DNA of 43,270 nucleotides from Phycisphaerae bacterium. GTDB lineage: Bacteria; Planctomycetota; Phycisphaerae; Sedimentisphaerales; Anaerobacaceae. Position 1 is the stretch's first letter; each line of letters starts with the position of its first letter. A program made the position numbers and the translations under genes. Location of the stretch: assembly GCA_012744475.1 (NCBI GenBank), contig JAAYBV010000046.1, positions 1 through 43,270 of the forward strand. The letters are read 5' to 3'. The notes under the pieces are model-generated. The model did no database searches, was not told the origin of the DNA, and saw only the letters and a list, made by a program, of their open reading frames with translations. Shown here piece by piece: positions 28,339-39,984 of the stretch.

Positions 28339-29262
28339 TCAGCCCGGCAACTCCGCGATCCACGCGTCGGATTGGGCTCTGGTGTAGCCGAGGAAGGCGG
28401 AATCGGGGTCGTGGAGATCGAAGGCCCGGCGGGCGGCGGCTTTGTTCGCGTTGGCGTAGCAGTACGCGCAGCCGTGCGGGCAGGTGTTGTAGGTCCCGAT
28501 GTCGGCGCTTTCGGTACAGCCGCATTCCGGCCTCGTGCCCTTGTCCCTGTACGGCGTCTCGCCCGGGCCGAACAAACGCTCGATGAGAGCCCCATCGATG
28601 CAGTGGGCCTTCTGAATCCGCTCGCCGAGCAGGTAATCGCCGCAGCAGGAGTACATCGCGATGCCGTGCTCAGCAGCCACCTCCGCAAGTCGGTTGGCCA
28701 GATCGATCCGCACCTGCTCGTTCGGTTCGAGCACCTGCACGCCTTGGGCTTTCTCCAAATTCCGGAAGTTCCGTCGGACCTTGCCGTAGAACGCAACGAA
28801 GCTGAAATAGCATCGCTCGACGAGTCCTTCCAGTTCGCTCGCCAAAGACTCGAACGCGCGGAGATAGAACGCCTCGTCGCTGATGCTCGACAGGATGATC
28901 GGATCGAACCGCCAGTTGATATGCGCGGGCGAGTAGCGTTCGGCCAGATGCTTCAAGGTGCGCAGGGCCGCATGCTTGTCTACGTCGCTCTCGAAGACCG
29001 ACGGCAGCGCCGTCAGAGTGTAGTTGAAGTAGGATCGGTAACCGAGGCGATCGAGGACTTCGAGGGGCGCGATGAACGGCGTGAAGTCTTTCGACCAGAA
29101 GACGAAACAGTCCACATCGTCGGGTCTCAGAGGCACGTGATATCGCCGGCCGCCGAAGGGATTGATCACGCCGGCGAATCCCTCCTGAATCCGTCGCATG
29201 AACCACTCGCCGTAGAAGGCCGGAATGTCGGTGCGTCGTGAAACCGAAATGATTCGTCTCAT
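28339..29262 (-). CDS. DUF1848 family iron-sulfur protein
   Basis: A 307-residue protein. The N-terminal MRRIISVSRRTDIPAFYGEWF and the later FWSKDFTPFI and YFNYTLTALP stretches are DUF1848 hallmarks. The cysteine cluster near the end, CGCTESADIGTYNTCPHGCAYCYANAN read in parts (CGC, then CPHGCAYCYAN), fits an iron-sulfur centre of the radical-SAM-like kind proposed for this family. The function is unknown. ATG 29262 is chosen because the conserved family start is there; the frame opens upstream to 29406 but runs through a hairpin terminator. The upstream leader is structured (see 29317-29490). Confidence 0.85.
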   Translation of the reverse strand: MRRIISVSRRTDIPAFYGEWFMRRIQEGFAGVINPFGGRRYHVPLRPDDVDCFVFWSKDFTPFIAPLEVLDRLGYRSYFNYTLTALPSVFESDVDKHAALRTLKHLAERYSPAHINWRFDPIILSSISDEAFYLRAFESLASELEGLVERCYFSFVAFYGKVRRNFRNLEKAQGVQVLEPNEQVRIDLANRLAEVAAEHGIAMYSCCGDYLLGERIQKAHCIDGALIERLFGPGETPYRDKGTRPECGCTESADIGTYNTCPHGCAYCYANANKAAARRAFDLHDPDSAFLGYTRAQSDAWIAELPG

Positions 29263-29316
29263 CGTGCCTGGCGGAACCTCATCGCAGCCGTAACTGAGCC
29301 GCACGCCGGTATCCAT

Positions 29317-29490
29317 AAAAAGGAAGACGGAGTCGCCCTCCTCCGGAACGACTCCGTAGCTTCTGGGAAACCGCGATCGGCCCCGCGCTTGCTGCCTCGG
29401 GCCCAACCTCGGCTCTTGCCGTAATAAAAGGGCGGGCGGTACCTCCTCCTCGTCAGATCGGCGTCATGTCAGTTTAGGACGGCCCGCCCC
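29317..29490 (-). ncRNA. Candidate structured leader RNA upstream of the DUF1848 gene
   Basis: Read on the minus strand: GGGCGGGC pairs with GCCCGCCC (29482-29489 and 29430-29437) around a 44-nt loop, followed by TTTTATT. Then comes CGGC-AAGA-GCCG (about 29410-29421). Last is a strong terminator, ACGGAGTCG / CGACTCCGT (29349-29357 and 29327-29335), followed by CTTCCTTTTT (29317 side). The last hairpin lies about 55 nt before the DUF1848 start. The loop of the first hairpin holds an AGGAGGAGGT and a four-codon ATG-to-stop frame. It does not match a riboswitch class I know. Confidence 0.4.
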
Positions 29491-29766
29491 GGGTTTTCGG
29501 AGATCCGCGCCCACAGGGGGCTGCGGCCCTGTTCGCCGCACAACACCCTGCGACCTACTGCAAACAACGTAACCAGTCTTTCGGCCAATGACAAGCACCT
29601 ATTTATTCCAATCCAGCTATTTTTTCCAACACCCCCAGACCGCCTGCCCCTTCGAAACATAACTGCCGAGCGTATCGCAACTAAGAGCTCTCGCGGTCAT
29701 CGGGCCGATTCTCGCGCGAACCGGGGGAATGCGAACCGGAGTGGACCGACTGGTGGCGGAATCAAT
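29491..29766. other. Spacer between the sulfatase-family gene and the structured leader
   Basis: No gene is supported. The stretch has an AT-rich part (29590-29635) unlike its surroundings and a palindromic ACAGGG/CCCTGT at about 29513-29532. A weak minus-strand promoter-like TTGTCA (29589-29594) has a poor -10, so I do not call a promoter. Confidence 0.4.
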
Positions 29767-31776
29767 CTACTGGTCTGCTGCGATGTGTCTGACGTTGGAG
29801 ATGCGACCGTTCCACCGGCACGACCAGGAGCCAAAGAGCGTCATGCTCCCCGCCGGCTTCTGATCGATGCGGAAGATGGTGCCCCTTCGCCATTGGACGA
29901 TCTCCTCACTGAATCCCTTGGCGACGTACTCGGGCAGATCGAACCGTGACATCTCCAGCGGATCGGTTCTCAGGCGGAACAGCGAGACCCTGTTCTGTTC
30001 CGGTTCGTAGACGAATTTGTTGCCGTTCTGGACGAAACCGGAGGGGCCCTGCTGCATCCAGCCGGCAAAATAGACTTTGCGATCCAAAGGCAATGGCCCG
30101 AGGGCATCGTCGCCGTCGAAGTCGAGTCCGGCGACCTCGAATCCGAGCAGACTCAGGATGGTGGGCACCAGATCGACGGAACTGACGGGACTGGCGATGC
30201 GCTGTCCCGGCACAATCAGAAGGGGTGCCCGGATGCACATGGCGATCCGCAACACCTCCTCGTAGGCGACGCGTTCGTGCCCATGGATCCGGTGCTCGCC
30301 GAAGGCTTCGCCGTGGTCGCCGACGACGCAGAAGATCGTGTCGTCCGCGAGCCCGAGGCTGGCCAGCTCGACATCCAGGGCCTGGATGAACTTGTCCGTG
30401 TAGGCGATCGTCTGCCGGTAGCGGTCGGGCAGCGTCCCGGCCATCTCACCGTACCAGGACGGGACCTCGTAGGGATCGTGGGTCACCGAGCACATCACTG
30501 TCAGCAGGAACGGTTTGTCATCCGACCGGATCCAGTCGCGGATCGGTTCGAGCAGGGCGAATTCGTCGGCGCCGAGATAGCCCACGAACGCATTCGGATC
30601 CTTGAGGTCCTCGCGGGCATAGAATTTCTGATACCCGAGGTTGTGAACCAGTCCGGCGCGGGACTCGAATGTCCCGGTGGGCGACTGGAAGAAGGCTGTT
30701 CGAAAACCCATTCCCTTTTCGAGGATCGTCGCGAGGCTGGCATAGGGCTGTGCGACGGGAACGGTCTCGCCGATGTCCTGGCAGGCGCCCGGCCGCCGGC
30801 CCGTCAGCAGGCCAAACAGCGCCTTGGTGGTGTGCGTCACAACCGAGCGGGCGTTGGTGAAACAGACCCCTTGCGAGGCCACGGTCGCCAGATACGGAGT
30901 TGGATCATACCCATCGCCATCGCTTTGCAGGTGGTTTGCCGCCAGGGAAGTGCACCTGTACTGGACCCCCTCCAGGACGACGATCACGACGTTGTGGTTG
31001 ACTCTGCGCGGTTTGAACGCGACCTCAACGTCTGTGGCATACGGGATCCGGCGTGTGGCATTGCTGAAATCGTCGCGGACCAGGTGCCGATACTCCGGCA
31101 GCAGAAAAGAGAGGATTGCCCGCGCCTGGCAGTTGAACCGCAGCCCGGCCGCCGTAATCTGGGCGGAACCCAGACGAGAGGCCGCCGCTATGCCAACGAT
31201 CGCCACGACAATCGCCACGAGAGAAAAGACGATCTTGGTGCGGAAGGTGCGGGGTTCATACGCCGGGGGCAGCGGCCTGGCCAAAGCGGAGAAGAAGAAC
31301 GCCAGCGCGACGGCGCTGGGCAGCAGCAGCGCGGCGGCGGCCACGGGCATACGGATCAGATTCAGACCCACAAGCTTGGTGATGTTGATCGGGTCACGGA
31401 GCCACGGCAGCAGTTCCATCGGCAGGATCTGCGTCCCCGTGCGGATCAACCAGCCGGCGTTCATCACCGACCACGTACAGGTGATCGTAGCGACGATCAT
31501 GGCCGCCCGCCAGACCGCCTTCCGAGGCCAGCGATAGCAGGCCAGTGCCAGAACCACTTCCAGGCTCAGGAGAATGGCGATGTCGGTCAGAATCCAACTG
31601 GGGTACTCACGCAGCAGCCCATAGCGCAGCGCGTGGTACAGCTTCACAGCCAGACTGCAGAACAGCGCCGCAAAGACGATGACGCTCCATGCCCGCGGAG
31701 CCAGCAGGCCATAAACGCGCCGGATGAGCCGGAACCGCTCGCGCGGAGCACCAGGTTGTAGACTCTGCTCATTCAT
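29767..31776 (-). CDS. Membrane-bound sulfatase / LTA-synthase-like protein (alkaline phosphatase superfamily)
   Basis: A protein of about 669 residues. Five or so membrane helices occupy the first 220 residues (VIVFAALFCSLAVKLY, ILTDIAILLSLEVVLALACY, AAAALLLPSAVALAFFFSAL, IVFSLVAIVVAIVGIAAAS). An alkaline-phosphatase-superfamily domain follows. Metal/nucleophile signatures are VVIVVLEG near 280, SVVTHTTKALFGLLTG with the likely nucleophile Thr, FCVVGDHGEAFGEH and the HGHERVAYEE stretch. Such enzymes transfer or remove phosphate, phosphoglycerol, phosphoethanolamine or sulfate at the cell surface; which one cannot be told. ATG 31776 is chosen over TTG 31806. It is monocistronic or read with the DUF1848 gene, about 500 nt downstream. 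Confidence 0.82.
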   Translation of the reverse strand: MNEQSLQPGAPRERFRLIRRVYGLLAPRAWSVIVFAALFCSLAVKLYHALRYGLLREYPSWILTDIAILLSLEVVLALACYRWPRKAVWRAAMIVATITCTWSVMNAGWLIRTGTQILPMELLPWLRDPINITKLVGLNLIRMPVAAAALLLPSAVALAFFFSALARPLPPAYEPRTFRTKIVFSLVAIVVAIVGIAAASRLGSAQITAAGLRFNCQARAILSFLLPEYRHLVRDDFSNATRRIPYATDVEVAFKPRRVNHNVVIVVLEGVQYRCTSLAANHLQSDGDGYDPTPYLATVASQGVCFTNARSVVTHTTKALFGLLTGRRPGACQDIGETVPVAQPYASLATILEKGMGFRTAFFQSPTGTFESRAGLVHNLGYQKFYAREDLKDPNAFVGYLGADEFALLEPIRDWIRSDDKPFLLTVMCSVTHDPYEVPSWYGEMAGTLPDRYRQTIAYTDKFIQALDVELASLGLADDTIFCVVGDHGEAFGEHRIHGHERVAYEEVLRIAMCIRAPLLIVPGQRIASPVSSVDLVPTILSLLGFEVAGLDFDGDDALGPLPLDRKVYFAGWMQQGPSGFVQNGNKFVYEPEQNRVSLFRLRTDPLEMSRFDLPEYVAKGFSEEIVQWRRGTIFRIDQKPAGSMTLFGSWSCRWNGRISNVRHIAADQ

Positions 31777-31887
31777 GGGGCCACAATAGTAGTGTAACCG
31801 TCTCAAGACCGCAAGCGGGATTGGACCGTCGCGGGCGTTCGTGGCCGATCCGAGATCGGGCGGAGAGGCCTTGCGTCTGGGTTTCTA

Positions 31888-39624: not shown

Positions 39625-39831
39625 GACAATTTCGCAAATTGAGTCGACATAGGTTTTAAGTCTGCTATGTGAAAGTACTTATGGCATCAAAATTCCGTCG
39701 GCCCTTGCGTGGATATGCGGGCAGACTTGTCTTTTGTGCTTGCCGCAAGCCCGATGGCGGCTACAATAACACCGGTTTAGGTCTGTTCGCCGGGCGTGCC
39801 TCGCGGACAGGCTCCTGTCGGATTGTAGCAC

Positions 39832-39918
39832 GGAGAGGTGTCGGAGCGGCTGATCGAGCTGGTTTCGAAAACCAGTGTACCGCTTGCGGTACCGCGGGTT
39901 CGAATCCCGCCCTCTCCG
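39832..39918 (+). tRNA. tRNA-Ser, anticodon CGA
   Basis: Acceptor GGAGAGG pairs with CCTCTCC and is followed by the discriminator G expected for serine. The anticodon stem CTGGT/ACCAG holds the loop TTCGAAA with anticodon CGA, which reads UCG. A long variable arm (GTACCGC..GCGGTAC) is present as in class II tRNAs. The T-loop is GGTTCGAATCC. TTTTT follows. CCA is not encoded. Confidence 0.95.
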
Positions 39919-39984
39919 TTTTTCGCCCGCATGGGCGCCGCGTCCAGTCCGCGTATTCGATGACAGAGGAGTCGCCGTATTCGC

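Follow-up and report, generated by a model that had tools for sequence, protein, structure and literature searches.

The closest described counterparts of the RNA reported here are CsrB/CsrC and RsmX/Y/Z of the Gammaproteobacteria, which are free-standing, display GGA in hairpin loops, and end in an intrinsic terminator. To our knowledge, titration of CsrA by such GGA-loop sRNAs is so far mainly known from relatives of E. coli. Other small RNAs, among them GlmY, Qrr, and CrcZ, are sigma-54 dependent and work by other routes. The sites recognized by CsrA are described, in excerpts of one report, as GGA in hairpin loops, preferably ANGGAN hexaloops on short stems (PMC7652899). Classical Csr sRNAs carry 9 to 25 GGA motifs according to sections of a second report, and sRNAs with one or two such motifs are stated there to bind CsrA much more weakly (PMC11882849). 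For the leader of the Campylobacter flaA mRNA, part of a third report describes probable binding of a single CsrA dimer and the capacity to titrate CsrA (PMC4894983). Antagonist sRNAs and FliW are regarded as alternative CsrA antagonists in portions of a 2015 survey, which suggests that Planctomycetes may use FliW and proposes that BarA-UvrY rarely or never transcribes CsrA-antagonist sRNAs outside the gamma-Proteobacteria (PMC4682653).

The window, that is, the whole stretch of 43,270 nt that was analyzed (contig G000:C19), carries a gene for a structured RNA on its minus strand between a gene encoding a sulfatase upstream (29767-31806, minus strand; Pfam PF00884) and a gene encoding a DUF1848 protein downstream (28339-29262, minus strand; Pfam PF08902, E = 9.8e-87). 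The gene body extends from 29317 to 29495 as delimited by a covariance-model match (29316-29495 in model R1), with the 3′ end at a T-run and an approximate 5′ end. The window copy is a divergent representative of a structured RNA that is missing from the reference catalogue, and it is atypical in its promoter. It matches R1, a covariance model made from ten loci, over the full length of the model at 119.6 bits (cmsearch), and it matches R2, a wider model made from 57 diverse copies, with an E value of 6.2e-20. Because the window copy was used in building both models, the independent evidence comes from the relatives.

An earlier note on this DNA had described a long-loop hairpin, and this is present as hairpin 1 (GGGGCGGGC...GCCCGCCC, 29490-29430, minus strand), which has a GC-rich outer stem, is followed by TTTT, and corresponds to helix 1 of the alignment described below. 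Its long loop carries TCCTAAA (29479-29473, minus strand) and GGAGGAGG (29449-29442, minus strand), the latter within the Shine-Dalgarno-like AGGAGGAGGT that the note had placed there (29450-29441, minus strand). The four-codon frame ATGACGCCGATCTGA that it had also read in this loop does exist in the window (29467-29453, minus strand), and no equivalent was seen by eye in the other loci that were read. The terminator hairpin was likewise correctly recognized: the stem of hairpin 3 (ACGGAGTCG...CGACTCCGT, 29357-29327, minus strand), which is supported by the terminator scan, the predicted fold, and helix 2 of the alignment, is followed by the T-rich tail CTTCCTTTTT (29326-29317, minus strand). 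GGAGGA stands at the tip of this hairpin (29344-29339, minus strand) and is partly paired in the predicted fold of the window copy. The terminator scan returned two overlapping sites, both of them hairpin 3, where 0.4 was expected. The second hairpin of the note, CGGC-AAGA-GCCG (29421-29410, minus strand), fared less well, as it is not kept in loci L009 to L011, which read GGCAAGAACCG there; a better candidate for hairpin 2 is a larger hairpin in the predicted fold (29415-29367, minus strand), the sequence of which is variable and the position kept, and a similar hairpin can be read by eye in the same three loci. Folding of 29317-29495 gave a z score of -1.96 relative to shuffled sequences (6 of 200 as good), and folding of the longer stretch 29310-29530 gave -1.35 (19 of 200 as good). 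Since folding only moderately beats the shuffles, the argument rests on conservation.

Conservation in relatives, on which the note had staked its claim, reaches from the genus through the whole family level into part of the order, as judged by BLASTN and by the covariance models. When 40 relatives were compared by BLASTN, conservation of the terminator hairpin was seen to go past the window's genus. At E ≤ 0.1, R1 detects the RNA in 79 of the 89 genomes of the window's family and in 42 of 45 genera, usually as one copy. At E ≤ 0.05, and with weak matches counted, R2 detects it in 101 of the 161 genomes of the order; by family, these matches, some of them weak, comprise 79 of the 89 genomes of the window's family, 12 of f2, 1 of f3, and 9 of f7, and none from f4 or f6 is among the matches listed. 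R1 matches 59 of 397 genomes in a draw from the class and 15 of 246 in a draw from the phylum, with the window's family included in both. Outside the family, 8 of the 13 R1 loci that were read were judged false by eye (L055 to L059 and L064 to L066), and dropping these from the 97 R1 hits leaves 89 copies judged real. Among 20 R2 loci that were read, most of those in f2 show sigma-54 sites as well as the GGAGG hairpins, and in f7 several copies retain the promoter and hairpin 3 only; L251 and L253 were unconvincing, and L247 and L252 were doubtful. The reading of R1 and R2 loci left out G436, G677, and other weak rows. A pattern for hairpin 1 had 68 matches in named genomes, 40 of which also match R1 and are titled Sedimentisphaerales, Phycisphaerae, Phycisphaerales, Planctomycetes, Planctomycetota, or plain bacterium; the remaining 28 are probably chance matches.

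The earlier note had recognized no known class in this RNA, and Rfam 15 contains no match. A cmscan of the whole window at the gathering threshold gave no match in the RNA region, and a scan at E ≤ 10 of 12 relative loci and of window positions 29200-29700 gave low-scoring matches only, none of them to Csr or Rsm RNAs. A literature search yielded, among the matches listed, no described sRNA of such a type from planctomycetes or Phycisphaerae. The RNA is best described as a new family which may act as the Csr sRNAs do and is not homologous to them. The sole match in the window at the Rfam gathering threshold, and the sole ARAGORN match, is a tRNA-Ser (cga) at 39831-39919.

The loci that were read share one layout, consisting of hairpin 1 (GGGCGG...CCUAAA...GGAGGAGG...CCGCCC), a variable hairpin 2, and hairpin 3 (GGAGUCG...GGAGGAGG...CGACUCC) followed by a T-run. 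For covariation and motif counts we used A4, an alignment of 64 typical copies among the 89 judged real; the other 25 comprise paralogues, odd copies, and forms that are either reduced or degraded, and the hexamer counts are accordingly valid for typical copies. The two helices of A4 covary strongly. Both-side changes are found in 16 of 23 pairs, compared with 8.4 ± 1.5 in shuffles, and in 86 cells, compared with 24.8 ± 5.4, a total that none of 500 shuffles reached. In the two helices together, 92.7% of cells are paired in an alignment fitted to the structure of R1, which favors pairing there, and sliding the helix partners by one to three columns lowers pairing to 36 to 52%. Helix 1 (hairpin 1) is 93.9% paired and has both-side changes in 4 of its 10 pairs; helix 2 (hairpin 3) has them in 12 of 13, including loop-adjacent pairs.

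The stems of the hairpins vary in A4 while GGAGGA stays: all 64 copies have the hexamer in hairpin 3 and 61 have it in the hairpin 1 region, and for the overlapping AGGAGG the corresponding counts are 61 and 59. In 50 of the 64 copies, the predicted loop of the terminator consists of GGAGGA exactly, and in the rest it is a variant of GGAGGA; examples of the hairpin are GUCGUGCC-GGAGGA-GGCACGAC in L039 and GUUAUUUC-GGAGGA-GGAAUAGC in L100. The purine run of hairpin 1 lies on the 3′ side of its loop and is partly paired with UCCU in predicted folds. A terminator hairpin bearing the motif occurs in 79 of the 89 copies judged real and is absent in ten. GGA triplets number 7.1 per RNA in the 64 copies, versus 3.2 after shuffling. 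Three congeners of the window's genome (G001, G004, and G005) retain hairpins 2 and 3, and their hairpin 1 is degraded.

A -24/-12 element (GG-N10-GC) precedes most copies of the RNA at a near-fixed distance. In 63 of the 88 copies with enough upstream sequence, the strict sigma-54 pattern TGGYRYN5YTGC, which was chosen after inspection of the first loci, lies 25 to 60 nt ahead of the match, compared with 0.05 expected in mononucleotide shuffles. This pattern is absent from the window copy and from the other members of its genus, and a scan of the window copy for consensus promoters found none. A weak element picked out by eye from the spacing in L009 to L011, TTGTCA-N16-TTACGT (29567-29594, minus strand), could, as a guess, serve the window copy as a sigma-70-like promoter. 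Upstream of the sigma-54 element, a dyad (RYGTTK-N8-MAACR) begins at a distance of 125 to 150 nt in 52 of the 63 copies, against an expectation of 0.01 that is biased by the pattern having been drawn from the same loci. The dyad is probably the site of a putative enhancer-binding protein. GlmY, Qrr, and CrcZ likewise have a -24/-12 element directly ahead of the RNA and a dyad upstream at a near-fixed distance; unlike these, the planctomycete RNA matches no Rfam family in our scans. RpoN was found in 76 of the 89 family genomes, and the 13 without a match include G068, G074, and G082, which are 93 to 94% complete and whose copies carry the sigma-54 site. The stretch containing the dyad was also considered as coding sequence and rejected, as by eye the frame is not conserved. 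In L028, L034, L039, L049, and others, the dyad reads RYGTTG-N8-CAACRY, and about 140 nt separate it from the sigma-54 element downstream. At the 3′ end of many loci (L016, L019, and L030 are examples), a recurrent GCG(C) motif comes after the T-run of the terminator (TTTGCG).

CsrA was found in 75 of the 89 family genomes and in 30 of the 32 good genomes, that of the window included, and for most of the solved CsrA homologues found, the alignment with the CsrA of the window's genome extends from residue 1 to 53-58. In the class, CsrA is present in 377 of 397 genomes, mostly without the RNA, and co-occurrence at this level is uninformative because CsrA is nearly everywhere. Within the family, loss of the RNA goes with loss of CsrA in a test in which the genomes are phylogenetically nonindependent and assembly gaps are also possible (Fisher P = 0.047 for 89 genomes; P = 0.012, 0.011, and 0.022 at completeness cutoffs of 80, 85, and 90). 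Among the 14 family genomes that gave no CsrA match, an RNA hit is nevertheless present in ten, and three of these ten are at least 85% complete (G014, G051, and G007); in the order, G338 and G026 also bear the RNA and have no CsrA match. Missing contigs may explain such genomes. The CsrA matches in G027 and G072 are weak or partial (E = 2e-5 and 1e-10), and these csrA genes are possibly decaying.

FliW was found in none of the 42 sampled members of the family, versus 237 of the 397 class genomes, as expected if the sRNA and FliW are alternative CsrA antagonists. Counts made by hand for other families gave FliW in 0 of 46 members of f2, f3, f4, f6, and f7 and in 6 of 7 members of f5, and the contrast may reflect one or two events; f4 and f6, which lack FliW, also lack the RNA among the matches listed. 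Searches for Hfq and FliW in the window's own genome gave no match.

The combination of FliW-less, mostly CsrA-bearing hosts with GGA hairpin loops makes a Csr-like action the most plausible. Our preferred reading, to which we give slightly less than an even chance, is that the window RNA is a trans-acting sRNA of the Sedimentisphaerales that works by titration of CsrA; the binding, the titration, and the induction by a sigma-54 activator are parts that we infer. Firing of the activator would allow the RNA to accumulate, its GGA loops would occupy CsrA dimers at their RNA-binding faces, and mRNA leaders would be deprived of CsrA for as long as the RNA persists. In this FliW-less clade, the RNA would fill the role that FliW may have in other Phycisphaerae. 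The sigma-54 site is missing from the window's genus and has perhaps been replaced there by a sigma-70-like promoter. Several observations count against CsrA titration, namely, the CsrA-negative and RpoN-negative genomes that carry the RNA; the lack of a sigma-54 site in the window's genus and of hairpin 1 in three congeners; the presence of CsrA in nearly all of a class that mostly lacks the RNA; families f4 and f6, with neither FliW nor, among the matches listed, the RNA; the predicted partial pairing of the purine run in hairpin 1; and a predicted loop that is GGAGGA and not ANGGAN, on a long stem, with about seven GGA triplets in two main places. A wider proposal, somewhat less probable, is that a sigma-54-driven sRNA that antagonizes CsrA arose in the Sedimentisphaerales, outside the Proteobacteria, and took the place of FliW, with a second, Fur-adjacent copy feeding another signal into the same CsrA pool.

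The earlier note had left open whether the RNA is a riboswitch or attenuator of the DUF1848 gene or a free-standing small RNA, and the genes around the relatives bear on this choice. They were called with a simple ORF caller on the 97 hits, 8 of which were judged false, and the cluster identities were taken from the Pfam matches of one ThiE and one Fur member. The nearest upstream ORF belongs to a sulfatase cluster in 42 hits, the window included, and is the most frequent syntenic neighbor; the nearest downstream ORF belongs to a ThiE cluster in 39 hits and to a Fur-family cluster in 8, with various other clusters in the remaining hits. A cis-acting leader would fit the recurrence of ThiE and, in the window, the terminator placed between the RNA and the DUF1848 ATG (29262), with the spacing of 55 nt from terminator to start codon that the note had given. 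However, DUF1848 was found after the RNA in just three genomes of one genus (the window's, G004 as translated, and G001 by the start of the gene) and is a neighbor in some members of that genus, not a family-wide partner. Downstream genes are convergent in L034 (glycosyltransferase-28), L050 (same cluster), L094 (TrmE/MnmE-type GTPase), and L104 (phage-integrase family), which excludes a leader role there. Furthermore, the terminator stem is kept, no alternative antiterminator was seen by eye, and no riboswitch was matched in Rfam. On this synteny, we reject the riboswitch or attenuator, the least probable of the readings considered. Because the genes that follow it change from one relative to another, and in some cases converge on it, the RNA is free-standing, as the note had alternatively suggested, and in most of the relatives examined it has its own promoter sequence and its own terminator. 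Also highly improbable is a reading in which conservation mainly concerns a terminator of transcription, which might be that of the sulfatase gene, and the remainder drifts. Hairpin 3 is indeed among the best-kept parts in the window's genus, and terminators like it stand alone elsewhere (weak hits L055 to L057 and L065), but a terminator does not need an invariant tip, genera g36 and g54 keep hairpin 1 without a recognizable hairpin 3, and both the promoter at a near-fixed distance and the sequence-conserved hairpin 1 would be left unexplained.

Two further alternatives accept a free-standing RNA and assign its G-rich loops another partner. As an ordinary base-pairing sRNA, it would use these loops as seeds for C/U-rich sites in mRNAs, which agrees with its free-standing form, activator-type promoter, own terminator, and display of the same hexamer in two loops. 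Seeds of base-pairing sRNAs usually drift along with their targets, whereas this hexamer hardly varies across the families examined, and the lack of an Hfq match in the RNA's own genome also argues against this reading, which we consider unlikely. Less likely still is a ribosome decoy or ligand, whose exposed GGAGG or AGGAGG would lower or redirect translation by pairing with the 16S rRNA at its anti-Shine-Dalgarno end. The 16S rRNA is an invariant partner and would therefore explain the invariance of the motif, and all 64 A4 copies have GGAGG in hairpin 3, while 61 have it in the hairpin 1 region. However, the match to the Shine-Dalgarno complement does not extend further: AGGAGGU occurs in just 5 of the 64 hairpin 1 regions, the window's among them, and a U directly follows the hairpin 3 motif in 3 of 64 copies. 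In the terminator stem, the final GG is paired in most cases, so the hexamer displayed is GGAGGA and not AGGAGG, which speaks against a ribosome decoy.

With titration of CsrA as the preferred reading, the comparison with CsrB/CsrC and RsmX/Y/Z can be specified. The planctomycete RNA shares with them the free-standing form, GGA motifs that are predicted to lie in hairpin loops, and the intrinsic terminator; its hosts likewise mostly have CsrA and lack FliW, and some genomes have paralogues with separate promoters. It differs from these gammaproteobacterial RNAs in its planctomycete host, its sigma-54-type promoter, and its lack of an Rfam match, and it has two main GGAGGA loops where they have many ANGGA loops, with fewer GGA motifs per RNA than the classical Csr sRNAs. 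The high-affinity ANGGAN hexaloop was not found in the predicted loops of the 64 A4 copies, and since homology and the exact loop both fail, the RNA is not filed as a member of the CsrB/RsmZ-type family. The stem is long, while CsrA SELEX hairpins mostly have 4 pairs or fewer in the excerpts of PMC7652899. In having few GGA hairpins, it resembles McaS-type sRNAs and the Campylobacter flaA leader as those are described in parts of the sources; the former are base-pairing sRNAs reported to be much weaker CsrA binders (PMC11882849), the latter is an mRNA leader, and both come from other phyla. The RNA adds a strongly conserved family to a phylum with hardly any regulatory RNA work among the literature matches listed. 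A FliW-less, mostly CsrA-bearing clade that carries a GGA-loop RNA with its own promoter also raises the testable question of whether CsrA outside the Gammaproteobacteria is controlled by sRNAs where FliW is missing.

Among the atypical copies, a paralogous second RNA type was seen in L023, L060, L067, L068, L070, L071, L072, L074, and L107. It has a different promoter with no sigma-54 site, its hairpin 1 ends in GAGGA, and its terminator tip is usually GGAGGA (L074 excepted). The nearest downstream ORF is of the Fur family in eight of these loci, and a MacB/FtsX-type cluster lies upstream in four. Other copies are reduced: L109 to L114 (genus g54) and L209 and L210 (genus g36) keep hairpin 1 with no recognizable hairpin 3, and the short copies L248, L249, L250, and L254 (f7) have a sigma-54 site and a GGAGGA terminator hairpin with no clear hairpin 1. 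In the second RNA type, the palindrome ACTACTATATAGTAGT lies near the start in L070 and L071, and something similar is present in L023, L072, and L074.
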